This document shows, one piece after another, positions 8,676 through 14,057 of a stretch of DNA of 34,506 nt (position 1 is its first letter; each line of letters starts with the position of its first letter). Both the position numbers and the translations under genes were made by a program. The stretch comes from Fusobacterium sp. GTDB lineage: Bacteria; Fusobacteriota; Fusobacteriia; Fusobacteriales; Fusobacteriaceae. The notes under the pieces were generated by a model. That model searched no databases. It saw nothing but the letters and a program-made list of their open reading frames with translations, and was not told the DNA's origin. The stretch is taken from contig NZ_JAUMYY010000017.1 of NCBI RefSeq assembly GCF_030528405.1, forward strand, positions 1 through 34,506. Direction: 5' to 3'.

Positions 8676-9677
8676 ATGAAAAAAATGTTATTTATTATGG
8701 CTTTAATAGTATCGGCAAACAGTTATTCAGCAATATCTATTAGTGGTGGAGCAATTTCTGGAAATTATAGTTTTTCTAATAACAGCTCTGGTGGAAAAGA
8801 TTTGTCTGGAGTTCTTTCTTTTACAGGAAATAATCCAATCATAGATCTTACCACAGTAAATGACACTATAAAGGCTGGAACTAAATTTATTTTAGTACCT
8901 AACCAGACAGTTAGAGTTAAGACACTTTATGGATGGAAAAATATCATTAATAATTCAAATGTTAATGGTTACTATCAGTTTAATTATGATCTTCAAGGAG
9001 GTCATCAGGGTCCACAAGATGCCTTTACTAATAGTTGTTTTGATCCAACAGGTGCAGATGTTTGCCAAGCTTTTCTTCCAAATCAGCCAGTACCACCAGC
9101 AAACAATCCACCTAAAAGACCTGATAAAGTGGAAGTAGATTTTTCTGAACAAACTGGTATTCCTCATACTGAGCTCCCTGATGGTGGATTTTATGATGAA
9201 AAAGAAACAGGAGAAGTTGTTTTATATATTCCTAGATCAAGAGTTAATTTAGACTTAGTGAGAAATATAAAGGCAACAACATTAAAAAATTTAGAAAAAT
9301 CTAAAGAAAATGGCTATACTATTGATGCCGAATATATAGGTGGATTGGGAGGCTTGTATAAAGATAAGAGTGAAAAAATAAAATATAGTTCTAACAGTAA
9401 TGGAATGTCTTTAACAGGAACTAGAAACTTTGGTCCATTAACTCTGGGAGCAACTTTTGGCTATCAAGAATCAGAAGTAAAATATAAAAACCATTTGAAC
9501 AATGTAAGAGAAGATATAGATACATATCAACTAGGTCTAAGCTTTAGACATAATTTCACAAAAGAAATAGATCTTACTTTATCAGCAACATATGGAAAAG
9601 GAAAACATAAATTTAAAACATTAAATGGTTTAGGTACAATAAATGGTGCAGAATATAAAGGGTGTATACCTTTTTGA
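8676..9677 (+). pseudogene. Autotransporter-like surface protein, truncated in its beta-barrel
   Basis: 333 residues. A signal peptide (residues 1-19, LFIMALIVSANSYSA) is followed by a short Ser/Asn/Gly-rich passenger. That region holds one cysteine pair about 11 residues apart and a proline-rich stretch. From about residue 215 the sequence shows the start of a C-terminal autotransporter barrel: alternating amphipathic strands such as GMSLTGTRNFGPLTLGATFGYQ and DTYQLGLSFRHN. Only about 110 residues of a roughly 270-residue barrel are present, and no terminal aromatic strand. The frame runs into the palindrome at 9660 and stops at once (GCIPF*). The remaining barrel is nowhere in the window. 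The 5' part has a strong AGAGGAGG ribosome site and promoter, so it may still be transcribed, but it should not insert in the outer membrane. Confidence 0.7.
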
Positions 9678-9723
9678 TATTGAAATAATAAAATTAGTTT
9701 TTCAATATCAGGAGTATACACCC
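9660..9723. repeat. 64-bp palindromic element (MITE-like or fused IS ends)
   Basis: GGGTGTATAC (9660-9669) and GATATTGAAA (9676-9685) are mirrored as TTTCAATATC (9700-9709) and GTATACACCC (9714-9723), with a small asymmetric internal loop and a 14-base centre. There is no T run after either arm, so it is not an ordinary terminator. Both flanks contain AAA, a possible 3-base duplication. It lies exactly where the autotransporter frame is lost. Confidence 0.7.
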
Positions 9724-9749: not shown

Positions 9750-10034
9750 TTATTCAGCCGTGATTACTATTTCTTCATTTTCTTTTGCATATTCAGTTGC
9801 TGATTTTTCAGCGATTAAATCTTCAATATGCTCTTTCATTTCTGTTAAAGTTTCTATATCCATACCATCAAAATTAGAACAAGTAGAAGGTTTTATATTG
9901 ATTCCTTGTTTTCTTAAAAATTCATCAACCTTACCTTGATTTTTTTTGTATAGATAGAATGCAACCGCTGCTGCACCAATTCCAACTACAGCACCCACTA
10001 AATGACATTTTGTTATTCCATTTCCTCTTAACAT
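9750..10034 (-). CDS. Small membrane-anchored protein of the metal-ATPase cluster
   Basis: 94 residues. One N-terminal membrane helix (about 12-29, Gly/Ala-rich, VGAVVGIGAAAVAFYLY) follows a short positively charged, Cys-His-containing start (KCH). A Lys-rich segment, one further cysteine and an acidic helical tail come after. I do not recognise a family. AGGAGG sits 6 bases before the ATG, and the gene lies 30 bases downstream of the preceding HMA-like gene on the same strand, so it is the last gene of the cluster. A single-pass protein with a cytoplasmic acidic tail could be an organelle-coat or metal-handling accessory factor, but that is inference. Confidence 0.65.
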   Translation of the reverse strand: MLRGNGITKCHLVGAVVGIGAAAVAFYLYKKNQGKVDEFLRKQGINIKPSTCSNFDGMDIETLTEMKEHIEDLIAEKSATEYAKENEEIVITAE

Positions 10035-10064
10035 TTTTTACCTCCTGATAATTAATTTTTATAT

Positions 10065-10817
10065 TTAAATTTTACTTAAAGTAATGTAACGCTCATTAAA
10101 GCTCATGTATGTATTAGCTTTCTTAAAAAATATATGATTTACCATATCTGAAAAATTTTCAATACTATGGTCATCTAAAATAGTAGCTGTATATTGATAA
10201 GAATGAGAAGTTTTTGTTCTAAAAACTTTTAAAATTTTTGTAGTTTGTTTTGGTACTGTTAAGTGTCTTCCAAAAGTTGTTAACCACATTATAAGTACTG
10301 TACTTAATTTAGATTCTTCTATAAAAGATTTAAGTAAGTAGAGTGCAGGTAAAATTTCTATATCAAACATTCCCCGCCTTCTTACCTCACTATAAGCATG
10401 TTCAAGTACGGAACCCACAGTTATGCCCATTGCAAAGGTATTCATAGAATTTTGAAGTTTAGTGTTATCTATATTAATAAATTTATTAAAACCAGCAGCT
10501 GTTATAGCTGCAAAGGCATAGATAGCTATAGGTGAAATAGATTTATATTCATAGCCCTCAAGAAGCCTAACTTGAACAAGCCCATTTTCTATTGAAAATG
10601 CTATACCCACCCTATATATGATTTCTTGTAAAAGAATTTCACTGGGTTCAAATTCTAAGGTTAAACATTGGTTTCTAGGACTATATTTAAAATTTAGCAT
10701 GGATAGATTGTTTTTAATTGTTTTATAAAAATTTTTTGGCTCTTTCATTGGAAGAGAAAGTTTTATTCTGACCCTGTTAGGTAACCTGTGTACGACAGTA
10801 ATAGAAAGTTTTTTCAT
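10065..10817 (-). CDS. HMA-like accessory protein with membrane segments (metal-ATPase cluster)
   Basis: 250 residues. The N terminus has the degenerate HMA-like signature VVHRLPNRVRIKLSL and a predicted beta-alpha-beta fold to about residue 85. Hydrophobic segments follow at about 93-112 (SPIAIYAFAAITAAGF) and about 128-145, then 155-195. The layout resembles the N-terminal HMA plus first-helix part of a P1B ATPase without any catalytic domain: there is no DKTGT. It starts 10 bases after the ATPase stop, so it is co-transcribed. In ferrosome-type loci, accessory membrane proteins accompany the P1B ATPase; this and the 169-residue protein are the candidates here. The C-terminal about 50 residues are unassigned. 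Confidence 0.65.
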   Translation of the reverse strand: MKKLSITVVHRLPNRVRIKLSLPMKEPKNFYKTIKNNLSMLNFKYSPRNQCLTLEFEPSEILLQEIIYRVGIAFSIENGLVQVRLLEGYEYKSISPIAIYAFAAITAAGFNKFINIDNTKLQNSMNTFAMGITVGSVLEHAYSEVRRRGMFDIEILPALYLLKSFIEESKLSTVLIMWLTTFGRHLTVPKQTTKILKVFRTKTSHSYQYTATILDDHSIENFSDMVNHIFFKKANTYMSFNERYITLSKI

Positions 10818-10826
10818 ACTCTTCTC

Positions 10827-13037
10827 CTATTTGTTATTTAAGTTGTATTTTAAAAGTTTTAATGAATTGCCAACAACAAAAATAGTTGTCGAATTGTGTA
10901 AAACAGAAGCATAGACTGGAGGTAATATACCAGTAGCACCTAAAACTAATGCAAAGGTATTAAGACCTATAACCATAGCAAAATTCTCTTTTATCGTTTT
11001 TATAGCTTTTTTTGAAAGACCTATAACTCCAGGGACTAAAAGAGGATCATCTTGAGTAATCGTTATGTCAGCTGCTTCCATTGCAACATCAGTACGAGTA
11101 CTCCCTAAAGCAACTCCAACATTTGCATAAGATAGAGCGGGAGCATCATTTATACCATCGCCTATCATTATAACATTTGAGCCAGAAGATTGAAACTTTA
11201 ATATATTTTTTGCCTTATCTTCAGGTAAAAGTTCAGATTCATATCTATCAAGTGACATTCTAGAGGCTATTGTTTCAGCCTGTTGTCTTAAATCTCCAGT
11301 CAATAGAACTATATCATCGACTCCATGATTTCTCAAACGATTTATAGCTTTTTTAATGTTTTCTCTAGGAGGATCTGAAACTCCTATAAGCCCTATTAAT
11401 TTATCGTTTTTAGCAACATAAATTCCTATTTCGCCTCTAGATATAATACCTCTTTCAGCTTCAGAAACAGAATCTAAATTAATAGAATTTTCCAGCATAA
11501 ATTTTTTACTGCCAACTCTAATAAGAGAAGCATCTTTTCCCTTTCCAATTTTTGTTTCAACACCACGACTGACGATGGTTTTTATTTTACTATGTTTTGG
11601 AATTTCAAGACCTCTATCTTTTATCTCATTCATAATAGCAACAGCTAGAGGATGAGAAGATTGCTCTTCAGCGGCAGCGGCAAGACAAAGCATTTCACTT
11701 TCATTTACTCCTTTTTTAAAAACTTCAATACTTTGTACTTTAGGTTTACCTTCTGTGATTGTACCAGTCTTATCAAAAATTACTGTTTCTGCCTTGGATA
11801 ATTCTTCTATAAAATTACTTCCCTTTATTAAAATACCATTTTTTGCTGCAGTATTTATGGCTGCGGAAAAAGCTACAGCAGTAGAAAGTCTTATACCACA
11901 AGAATAATCAATAACAAGCATACTCATAGCCTTAGTAATGTTTTTTGTAGTGACATAGACAATTCCAGCTAGTATAAAATTTAAAGGTATTAGCTGTGCT
12001 GAAAACGTATCAGCATAATTTTGTATATCAGCTTTATTTGAATTTGCATCTTCAACTAACTTTATAATTCTGGAAACAGTTCTATCATCTCCCACTTTTT
12101 CTGCTAATATGCTTATATTACCATTTTTTATGATAGTACCAGCAAATACATTTTCTCCAATAACTTTTTTAACTGGCATATATTCACCAGTAATGGAAGA
12201 TTGATCTATAAGTGCCTCTCCTTTTATTATTTTTCCATCGACACTTATTTTTTCACCTGTTTGTACAACTATAACATCATCTTTTTTTATTTCTTCAATA
12301 GGGACTCTTTTAACATTGTCATCTTCCATTTCCTTCCAAACATAGCTTTCTCCAACACTTAGCATATCTTTTATAGCACCACGAGTTTTTTGCATTGTGT
12401 ATGCTGTTAAAAGCTCGGCAATTTCTTCCAGCATCATAATAGTTAAAGCAGTATATTCTTTGCCAAGTAGTATGCTACTTATTATTGCGGTAGAACTTAA
12501 AGTATCAGCATTTGGTCTTTTATTTTTGAATAAAGACATAAAACCATTTTTTATAACTGGCATAGCAAGACTTATCGTTGAAAGAGTATTATAGTTGAAA
12601 AATTTTTTTAAACCGATAGTTGCAATATCAGATTTTTTTCTAAAAAAGAGATTATATACAAGTAAACCTCCTGTCATAGCAATCTTTTTTAAAATTTCAT
12701 TTGGAGATTCCTCTTGTAATTTTCTTTCAATTATGTACTTGGAAGCATTTATTTTTTTTTCATTAGAACAAATTTCAAATATATGAGAATTTAAAGTGTT
12801 TTGTATTAAATTTATCAAGTTTTGTTCGCTTAGTGAAATATCTTCAAAATAGATTAAAATAGTACCAGTTATAAGGTTGATTTCAACAGACTGTATATAT
12901 TTTACTTGTAGTAATTGCTTTTCAATTTCTGCTTTAAGAGAAGGAGTGATATATTTTAAAGCCTTAGATTTTATACGAATTCTTCCCCTTAATCTATGTA
13001 TTATATAGCAAGAAAGCAAATTTTCATTTTTTTTCAT
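10827..13037 (-). CDS. P1B-type metal-transporting ATPase with SCG membrane motif (FezB-like candidate)
   Basis: 736 residues from ATG 13037. That start is chosen over GTG 13046 because AAGGGTG lies about 6 bases before it and would abut the GTG. An HMA-like N terminus (IIHRLRGRIRI, no CxxC) spans about residues 10-90. The actuator TGEYMPV lies near 284, the phosphorylation site DKTGT near 422, the P1B HP motif SSHPLA near 462 and the hinge GDGINDAP near 626. The pre-DKTGT helix, which carries CPC in Cu and Cd/Zn pumps, reads DYSCGIRLST, and the last helix has HNSTT. These fit the SC-x class of P1B pumps (P1B-6, as I recall), found with ferrosome iron organelles. Substrate and subgroup are inferred. 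Confidence 0.88.
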   Translation of the reverse strand: MKKNENLLSCYIIHRLRGRIRIKSKALKYITPSLKAEIEKQLLQVKYIQSVEINLITGTILIYFEDISLSEQNLINLIQNTLNSHIFEICSNEKKINASKYIIERKLQEESPNEILKKIAMTGGLLVYNLFFRKKSDIATIGLKKFFNYNTLSTISLAMPVIKNGFMSLFKNKRPNADTLSSTAIISSILLGKEYTALTIMMLEEIAELLTAYTMQKTRGAIKDMLSVGESYVWKEMEDDNVKRVPIEEIKKDDVIVVQTGEKISVDGKIIKGEALIDQSSITGEYMPVKKVIGENVFAGTIIKNGNISILAEKVGDDRTVSRIIKLVEDANSNKADIQNYADTFSAQLIPLNFILAGIVYVTTKNITKAMSMLVIDYSCGIRLSTAVAFSAAINTAAKNGILIKGSNFIEELSKAETVIFDKTGTITEGKPKVQSIEVFKKGVNESEMLCLAAAAEEQSSHPLAVAIMNEIKDRGLEIPKHSKIKTIVSRGVETKIGKGKDASLIRVGSKKFMLENSINLDSVSEAERGIISRGEIGIYVAKNDKLIGLIGVSDPPRENIKKAINRLRNHGVDDIVLLTGDLRQQAETIASRMSLDRYESELLPEDKAKNILKFQSSGSNVIMIGDGINDAPALSYANVGVALGSTRTDVAMEAADITITQDDPLLVPGVIGLSKKAIKTIKENFAMVIGLNTFALVLGATGILPPVYASVLHNSTTIFVVGNSLKLLKYNLNNK

Positions 13038-13038
13038 T

Positions 13039-13434
13039 TTATTCACCCTTCTCTAATTTTTCTTTGAGCATTGAATAGAATTTTTTTACATTATTTTCAA
13101 TTTCAGAAATAGAAAGACCATGATAAATATACTCATTGTCCACTAAAATTTTCCAAATTTTATTTAACCAGTCAACAATGTCTTTTTCTGTTAATTTTTT
13201 TTTGTCGTATTCAATTAAAATTTTGCTGGTTAAATAAGAATAGGAAATTTTATTTATTCCCTGTTTCATTTTTAATATAGAACTTACATAGTCTTCATAT
13301 TTTTTCATTTCTTCTGGTACTTTATCAAGAGAAGGAATAAACAATCTTACTCTTCCTGGAATACTATGAATAATTTTTACTTTATTGAACATTAAATAAG
13401 TTTTCTTTAATACATCTTTAATTACGACATTCAT
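13039..13434 (-). CDS. HMA-like soluble accessory protein (metal-ATPase cluster)
   Basis: 131 residues with no membrane segment. Residues about 17-95 repeat the degenerate HMA signature seen in its neighbours (IIHSIPGRVRLFIPSLD) and the later strand KISYSYLTSKILIEYD, a ferredoxin-like beta-alpha-beta-beta-alpha-beta pattern. The metal-binding CxxC of classical HMA domains is missing. GGGAG precedes the ATG, which directly abuts the stop of the 169-residue gene. The stop is 1 base before the ATPase ATG, so translation is tightly coupled. A docking or regulatory partner of the ATPase is a reasonable inference. Confidence 0.65.
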   Translation of the reverse strand: MNVVIKDVLKKTYLMFNKVKIIHSIPGRVRLFIPSLDKVPEEMKKYEDYVSSILKMKQGINKISYSYLTSKILIEYDKKKLTEKDIVDWLNKIWKILVDNEYIYHGLSISEIENNVKKFYSMLKEKLEKGE

Positions 13435-13944
13435 TTATTGCTCCCTTCTTTCTTTTATTTCCTTTGTAAACAGACTATATGCCCACCAAATTAAAGTAGC
13501 ACCAGCAGGCATAACAGGGTTAGTTCGAATTTTTTTTAAGCCATATAACAATAGAAGTGTAGCAGCCAAGGTTCTTGAGTCTAAAAGCCCTCTAGTCTTA
13601 TTATATATTGCTATATCGGAAAAGTTTAAAAAATTTATAAAAAGAGATTTTAAACTTCCATCTCGATTTTTAAATATTTCGTTTTCTAAATTTAAAAGTC
13701 TTAAAATAATTCCTATTATAAAGTTAGCGTCTGTTCTCTTATCATCAAAATCAATAGTTAAACTGCCTAAACAAGAAACTATTTTAAAATTCTTTATTAA
13801 GCTAATTTTACTAAGATTCTGCTTTAAATTTTCAATTTCTTCTGTATTATTTTTTAGTTTATTAATTTCCATTCTGATTCTATTTTTTGTTAGAGATTTT
13901 ATTTCAAAAATACCATAAAAATCTGGAAGAAGATTATTTTTCAT
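13435..13944 (-). CDS. First gene of the metal-ATPase cluster: degenerate HMA-like protein with one membrane segment
   Basis: 169 residues. The N-terminal half (GIFEIKSLTKNRIRMEINKL, then KNFKIVSCLGSLTIDFDD) keeps the strand-helix-strand pattern of the neighbouring HMA-like domains, with KNRIRM in place of PGRVR. The C-terminal part (about 120-160) holds two hydrophobic stretches (DSRTLAATLLLLYGL, NPVMPAGATLIWWAYSLF) that could be a membrane hairpin. AGGAG lies 10 bases before the ATG, behind a good minus-strand promoter. Its place before the ATPase and its resemblance to HMA-plus-membrane proteins suggest a membrane partner of the pump. No family is recognised with certainty. Confidence 0.6.
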   Translation of the reverse strand: MKNNLLPDFYGIFEIKSLTKNRIRMEINKLKNNTEEIENLKQNLSKISLIKNFKIVSCLGSLTIDFDDKRTDANFIIGIILRLLNLENEIFKNRDGSLKSLFINFLNFSDIAIYNKTRGLLDSRTLAATLLLLYGLKKIRTNPVMPAGATLIWWAYSLFTKEIKERREQ

Positions 13945-14028: not shown

Positions 14029-14057
14029 ATTATATACTTGTTTTGATAAATATGCAA
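14029..14057 (-). promoter_or_regulatory. Promoter of the metal-ATPase cluster
   Basis: On the minus strand TTGCAT (14057-14052), a 17-base spacer and TATAAT (14034-14029) form a near-consensus promoter, leaving a leader of about 80 AT-rich bases before the ATG at 13944. Confidence 0.65.

Follow-up and report, generated by a model that had tools for sequence, protein, structure and literature searches.

What do five tightly packed minus-strand genes in a Fusobacterium contig make, when one of them encodes a P-type ATPase with unusual motifs and the others repeat part of that ATPase? An earlier note on this DNA had proposed that the cluster builds a ferrosome, the membrane-bounded iron granule of anaerobes, or a related metal-handling complex, and that it might be a fusobacterial variant. 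On the evidence of its genes, the operon is with fair probability a variant form of the fez system and would pump Fe(II), the destination being probably a ferrosome-like compartment. The features on which this reading draws are collected in Table 1, with positions in the window (the whole stretch of DNA analysed, 34,506 nucleotides).

Table 1. Features of the operon and its borders in the window.
Feature	Position	Strand	Description	Basis
p169	13435..13944	-	first operon gene; full-length HMA_2 (PF19991) protein	ORF, Pfam, conservation
p131	13039..13434	-	short HMA_2 protein	Pfam match, alignment
P1B-6 ATPase	10827..13046	-	N-terminal HMA_2, SCG in TM4, HN in TM6	Pfam, motifs, tree
p250	10065..10817	-	HMA-like alpha/beta domain and four-helix bundle	conservation, AlphaFold2 model
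p94	9750..10034	-	one TM helix and a long helix; FezA/PacL-like layout	conservation, AlphaFold2 model
promoter-like TTGCAT-17-TATAAT	14029..14057	-		sequence; similar hexamers in closest relatives
palindrome	9660..9723	.	between convergent gene ends; likely two-way terminator	single genomic copy

All five open reading frames are present and as closely packed as the earlier note had described, with gaps between successive genes, from p169 to p94, of 0, -8 (an overlap), 9 and 30 bases. The ATPase frame as called encodes 739 amino acids from a GTG start; because homologues begin near an in-frame ATG at 13037, this call is probably three codons too long and the ATG is probably the true start. The promoter hexamers were likewise found as described, and they have counterparts upstream of the operon in the closest relatives. 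No Fur-like box or palindrome upstream of the operon scored above shuffled sequences, either in the window or in its Fusobacteriota relatives, and the genes immediately flanking the window operon are not iron genes. Beyond the downstream end, an autotransporter-like reading frame of 333 amino acids (8676-9677) has its stop inside the probable terminator palindrome, and this gene looks truncated.

The ATPase carries SCG in place of CPC (residues 382-384, within the TM4 sequence DYSCGIRLS) and has no CxxC in its first 200 residues, both in agreement with the earlier note, and a further motif, HN, lies in TM6 (residues 717-718, within VLHN at 715-718). HN in TM6 is a feature of P1B-6 pumps (PMC9374683), a class listed as transporting Fe(II) (PMC7558416). 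A maximum-likelihood tree was built from 59 P-type ATPases (LG+C20+F+G4). In it, a clade of 44 rows with support of 100/100 unites the family of the window ATPase (30 rows, 100/99) with a FezB-like branch (14 rows, 100/97). Members of this clade have SCG or SCA where other pumps have CPC, and 43 of the 44 carry the TM6 HN, compared with none of 15 outgroup pumps. CopA-type and ZntA-type pumps fall outside the clade, among them the two CPC pumps that this genome encodes. The window ATPase falls in the sister group of the FezB branch and not inside it, the limits of the latter being uncertain in a tree with no named FezB; a PDB sequence search returned no FezB-named chain. By its motifs and tree position the ATPase is a P1B-6 pump, and its family and genomic context point to Fe(II) as the substrate. 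To our knowledge, no member of the SCG branch has been studied experimentally.

It is highly improbable that the ATPase is an ordinary exporter of Cu, Zn/Cd/Pb or Co that happens to have odd accessory domains. The generic heavy-metal and Cd-family ATPase models of NCBIfam do score above their cut-offs, but the pump lacks CPC and CxxC, has HN in TM6 and is separated at 100/100 from the CPC pump groups, and the genome already has two CPC-type pumps. Identity as a Cu, Zn/Cd or Co pump was rejected on these motifs and on the tree, in which the ATPase groups with the Clostridioides FezB type (100/100), away from Cu and Zn/Cd pumps.

The N-terminal signature that had been noticed in the ATPase and three of its partners is real and follows the pattern H-x3-[GN]-R-x-R, the copies being HRLRGRIR (ATPase), HRLPNRVR (p250), HSIPGRVR (p131) and, in degenerate form, KSLTKNRIR (p169). 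The Pfam family HMA_2 (PF19991) covers the whole of p169 (model positions 1-154, E=2.6e-48) and matches the N-termini of p131 (E=1e-9) and of the ATPase (residues 15-87, E=3.8e-11). Hydrophobic segments occur toward the C-terminus of p169, at about residues 120-135 and 146-160, and the HSIPGR of p131 is invariant among the Fusobacteriota sequences aligned; a PDB sequence search with p169 gave nothing useful. The domains of p169, p131 and p250 are all of HMA_2 type without metal-binding cysteines, and the HMA_2 of these accessory proteins is the same domain that forms the N-terminus of the Clostridioides FezB-type ATPases.

In p250 itself no HMA_2 match was obtained with Pfam, while 14 of 23 relatives have one, and the AlphaFold2 model (pLDDT 86, pTM 0.69) places an HMA-like alpha/beta domain ahead of a four-helix bundle. 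Across phyla (23 sequences) His140 is invariant and His185 nearly so; both lie in the modelled helical part, and we offer purely as a hypothesis that the pair may be an iron or heme site. None of the 23 relatives matches DUF4405, and identification of p250 as a DUF4405 cytochrome was rejected by sequence for this reason. A fold search of the PDB with the model found resemblance to MerP and HMA domains in the HMA-like part only, with no match at E < 0.1, and a PDB sequence search yielded nothing useful.

The smallest protein, p94, has a single TM helix (9-31) with GxxxGxG and a long helix (60-91) that ends in KEHIEDLIAE. Its AlphaFold2 model, of modest confidence (pLDDT 70, pTM 0.31), contains helices at 9-31, 33-42 and 60-91, and relatives from several phyla have in common the GxxxG of the TM helix and, at the end of the protein, a helix resembling KExxEDxIAE. 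This layout of a glycine-rich TM helix followed by a cytoplasmic helix is shared with FezA (DUF6110), and a profile comparison with Clostridioides DUF6110 proteins weakly suggests homology (hhalign probability 48, E 1.9e-4, a weak match). The DUF6110 model, which does detect the Clostridioides protein, found no match in 98 Fusobacteriota genomes and none in the control genomes. Among the p94 relatives, those of loci L012, L014, L023 and L029 have cysteine-rich C-termini (CEACEATACDTTAECK, CDISCEAK, CEACEIAEAK and CCEE). Such tails may be metal-binding ends similar to those of PacL; the window p94 has none.

DUF6110 proteins have been described as PacL-like, as typically encoded with P1B-6 pumps, and as proposed assemblers of membrane platforms (PMC9374683, PMC13043812), and the layout of p94 is the same. 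A rather unlikely alternative is that p94 clusters the pump into an efflux platform in the plasma membrane. The platform would export Fe(II), or a related ion, from the cell; the HMA_2 proteins would have a regulatory part in it, and no compartment would form. However, in C. difficile the membrane protein FezA and the transporter FezB, which appear to be a DUF6110 protein and a P1B-6 pump, are both needed for ferrosomes and are Fur-repressed (PMC12574912). In addition, p94 has no match to DUF1490, the pump has SCG and not CPC, and the flavodoxin and FeoB genes found near related clusters suit iron shortage or uptake better than iron overload. The platform and the ferrosome are not mutually exclusive.

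The five-gene arrangement is conserved well beyond the window. A search with PF19991 found a p169-type protein in about 30 of 98 Fusobacteriota genomes, and the order p169-p131-ATPase-p250-p94 was identical in all 20 Fusobacteriota loci extracted, so the arrangement is not due to chance. Identity of these homologues to the window proteins is 55-88% for the ATPase and 45-82% for p94, and close relatives include Fusobacterium gastrosuis (ATPase 88% identity), F. mortiferum and Leptotrichia species. F. vincentii has the complete set, with an ATPase of 84% identity; a 2.1-Mb record of this species, NZ_CP084075.1 (L110), is filed as plasmid pSB055A but, judging from its size, is probably the chromosome. 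When contigs were scanned with the ATPase alignment, full-length relatives of 45-49% identity were found, followed by a sharp gap and then a group at 30-37%. Most of the former are flanked by relatives of p169, p131, p250 and p94, a few of them incompletely, and they come from Desulfobacterota, Planctomycetota, Chloroflexota, Myxococcota, Spirochaetota, Armatimonadetes, KSB1 and alphaproteobacterial bins; several of these names belong to metagenome bins whose taxonomy may be wrong. Nearly all of the latter are CPC pumps without these partners. The five-gene set is present, too, in the order to which Clostridioides belongs (Bacillota), and plasmid pBM400 of Priestia megaterium carries a diverged form, three neighbours of which bear the annotation HMA2 domain protein. 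With these five genes found across many phyla, the suggestion of a fusobacterial variant was not borne out, and the operon is not a fusobacterial invention. Systems of the fez/P1B-6 kind are already known, and the SCG branch with its five genes appears to be one variant of them; no description of it was found in the literature searched, and the founding papers (Grant 2022, Pi 2023), which that search did not cover, may hold one.

Neighbouring genes at related loci connect the cluster with iron. A Pfam scan of 74 proteins beside non-fusobacterial clusters found Fe-dependent repressor domains in 4 and FeoB in 2 to 3, and a scan of 53 proteins beside fusobacterial clusters found flavodoxin in 4, DUF2023 in 3 and Fe-dependent repressors in 2. 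Single Pfam checks identified DtxR-type repressors at L037, L042 and L054, FeoB at L151 and L157, and flavodoxin with DUF2023 at L019. Altogether, six non-fusobacterial and two fusobacterial clusters have a DtxR-type repressor nearby, three have FeoB and four have flavodoxin. A search with these proteins was positive at 15 of 52 cluster loci and 1 of 51 control loci (Fisher p 1.8e-4), a comparison that is biased because the queries were drawn from the target loci and in which close relatives are not independent. Pfam analysis of 75 control neighbours showed no recurring DtxR or FeoB among the first 25 families listed; FtrD-like domains recur there and one FTR1 is present, so the control set is not free of iron genes. 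At FezB-branch loci, feoA or feoB adjoins in many cases. In the source genome (an assembly 91% complete), the matches to FeoB look like other GTPases.

These neighbourhoods bear on a further alternative, in which the HMA_2 proteins form a scaffold, with no compartment, for storage or redox handling of another metal or for iron trafficking in the cell envelope. Such a role would fit the membership of p250 and p94 in every operon copy, as families without curated annotation, and the finding that in neighbouring systems HMA_2 domains accompany further P-type ATPases. It is nonetheless improbable: across distant phyla, the genes beside the cluster repeatedly include iron repressors, Feo and flavodoxin, whereas no regulator or transporter of Mn, Ni or Co recurs among the neighbours listed, which include a single Mntp and a single ABC-3. 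Absence of ferritin was considered as a correlate of the operon and rejected, as ferritin-family genes occur in 94 of 98 Fusobacteriota genomes, in operon carriers and non-carriers alike. Most carriers also have such genes, so that a second iron store is not obviously needed.

Other ATPases associated with HMA_2 were met in the course of these searches. ATPases of ~1,000-1,070 amino acids with a Ca-pump-like TM4 (PEGL) lie near HMA_2 matches (L155:1909-5022, L156:3737-6814, L177:1295-4327, L184:4651-7677 and L194:5258-8479), often adjoining a second, odd P-type ATPase or small HMA_2 proteins, and seem to make up a distinct family of systems linked to HMA_2. At L152 (G159:C1:3121000-3135000), the five-gene cluster adjoins a second cluster that encodes an odd 619-amino-acid P-type ATPase (CPTA in TM4), a 418-amino-acid protein and further HMA_2 proteins. 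ATPases with an ACPCATVL-like TM4 and p250- or HMA_2-like N-terminal matches (L185:7737-9932, L186:7597-9972, L188:2759-4963 and L192:4890-7289) come from the same Desulfobacterota neighbourhoods, and the L186 and L192 copies have feo-type genes and a P1B-6-like ATPase as neighbours.

Returning to the variant fez system as the preferred reading, the FezB-like ATPase would move Fe(II) out of the cytosol across a membrane, with p94 acting as a FezA/PacL-like scaffold that clusters the pump. The HMA_2 domains of p169, p131 and p250 may pair with one another or with the N-terminal HMA_2 of the pump, and the three proteins would shape or gate the assembly, while the helical bundle of p250, with its two conserved histidines, could hold iron or heme. 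The product would be a membrane-bounded iron store of the ferrosome type, used on shifts in iron supply. Going beyond this, we tentatively suggest, as a possibility somewhat more doubtful than not, that the operon represents a second widespread ferrosome lineage, built from an SCG P1B-6 pump, three HMA_2 proteins without metal cysteines and p94. In such a lineage the HMA fold would serve as an assembly module and not as a metal carrier, p250, with an iron or heme site formed by its histidines, would stand in for FezC, and the hosts would include Fusobacteriota (F. vincentii and Leptotrichia among them), Desulfobacterota, Planctomycetota, Spirochaetota, Bacillota and others. If this is true, iron organelles are normal in many anaerobes, including Fusobacterium and Leptotrichia of the mouth and gut, and ferrosomes become open to study in species that are genetically more workable. 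The proteins p250 and p94 and the cysteine-less HMA_2 proteins would then be concrete targets for understanding how the compartment is built, and comparison of the SCG and SCA branches would reveal the essential parts of the machinery.

How closely does the operon resemble systems already described? The relation to fez proposed by the earlier note stands in part: the P1B-6 motifs, the grouping with FezB-type pumps, the HMA_2 domains of the accessory proteins and the iron context in relatives all agree with it, while the position of the ATPase outside the FezB branch, the weakness of the match between p94 and FezA and the lack of DUF6110 matches in the 98 Fusobacteriota genomes do not. The founding ferrosome papers are said to describe a fez operon of three genes in D. 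magneticus and one of six genes in both R. palustris and S. putrefaciens. The R. palustris operon is RPA2333-2338 (PMC12016538). The nearest example of the six-gene type encountered here is in Vibrio sp. THAF190c (L113), in which, as in the window, an HMA_2-type ATPase is encoded beside small HMA_2 proteins and a FezA-like TM protein; unlike the window locus, it falls on the SCA branch of the tree and has no p250-type or full-length p169-type protein. The mycobacterial pair PacL and CtpC (DUF1490 and a P1B6-like ATPase) similarly includes a small TM protein, in which a glycine motif is conserved and a helix lies in the cytoplasm (PMC9374683, PMC13043812). CtpC, however, has CPC in TM4 and exports zinc, whereas the window pump has SCG; the C-terminal metal-binding motif of PacL is absent from the window p94, and no HMA_2 partners are described for PacL/CtpC. 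A further ferrosome protein, FezC, is a DUF4405-type heme protein (PMC10979944), and like p250 it combines a helical bundle with conserved histidines, although p250 has an HMA_2 N-terminus, no DUF4405 match and no PDB fold match.

A further close comparison is with the Clostridioides pair. In six genomes of 4.2-4.8 Mb (G160, G219, G204, G214, G252 and G302), a 699-amino-acid ATPase with an HMA_2 N-terminus (HEIRGRIR) and the TM4 sequence DFSCALKLS follows a small membrane protein of 131-138 amino acids, which is DUF6110 in Pfam in the one case tested; no DUF4405-type FezC gene was seen beside this pair either. Five of the six contain DNA that matches the beginning of the C. difficile phage phiCD27 at 79-94% identity, from which we infer that these genomes are Clostridioides, and the DUF6110 and P1B-6 genes are likely fezAB. 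Both systems have a P1B-6 pump with an HMA_2 N-terminus, SC[AG] in TM4, HN in TM6 and no CxxC, and both encode alongside it a small glycine-rich single-TM protein that ends in an E..ED..AE helix. The Clostridioides system has two genes, with DUF6110 upstream and SCA in the pump, whereas that of the window has five, with p94 downstream, SCG in the pump and three extra HMA_2 proteins; p94 lies outside DUF6110, and the two ATPases form sister branches.
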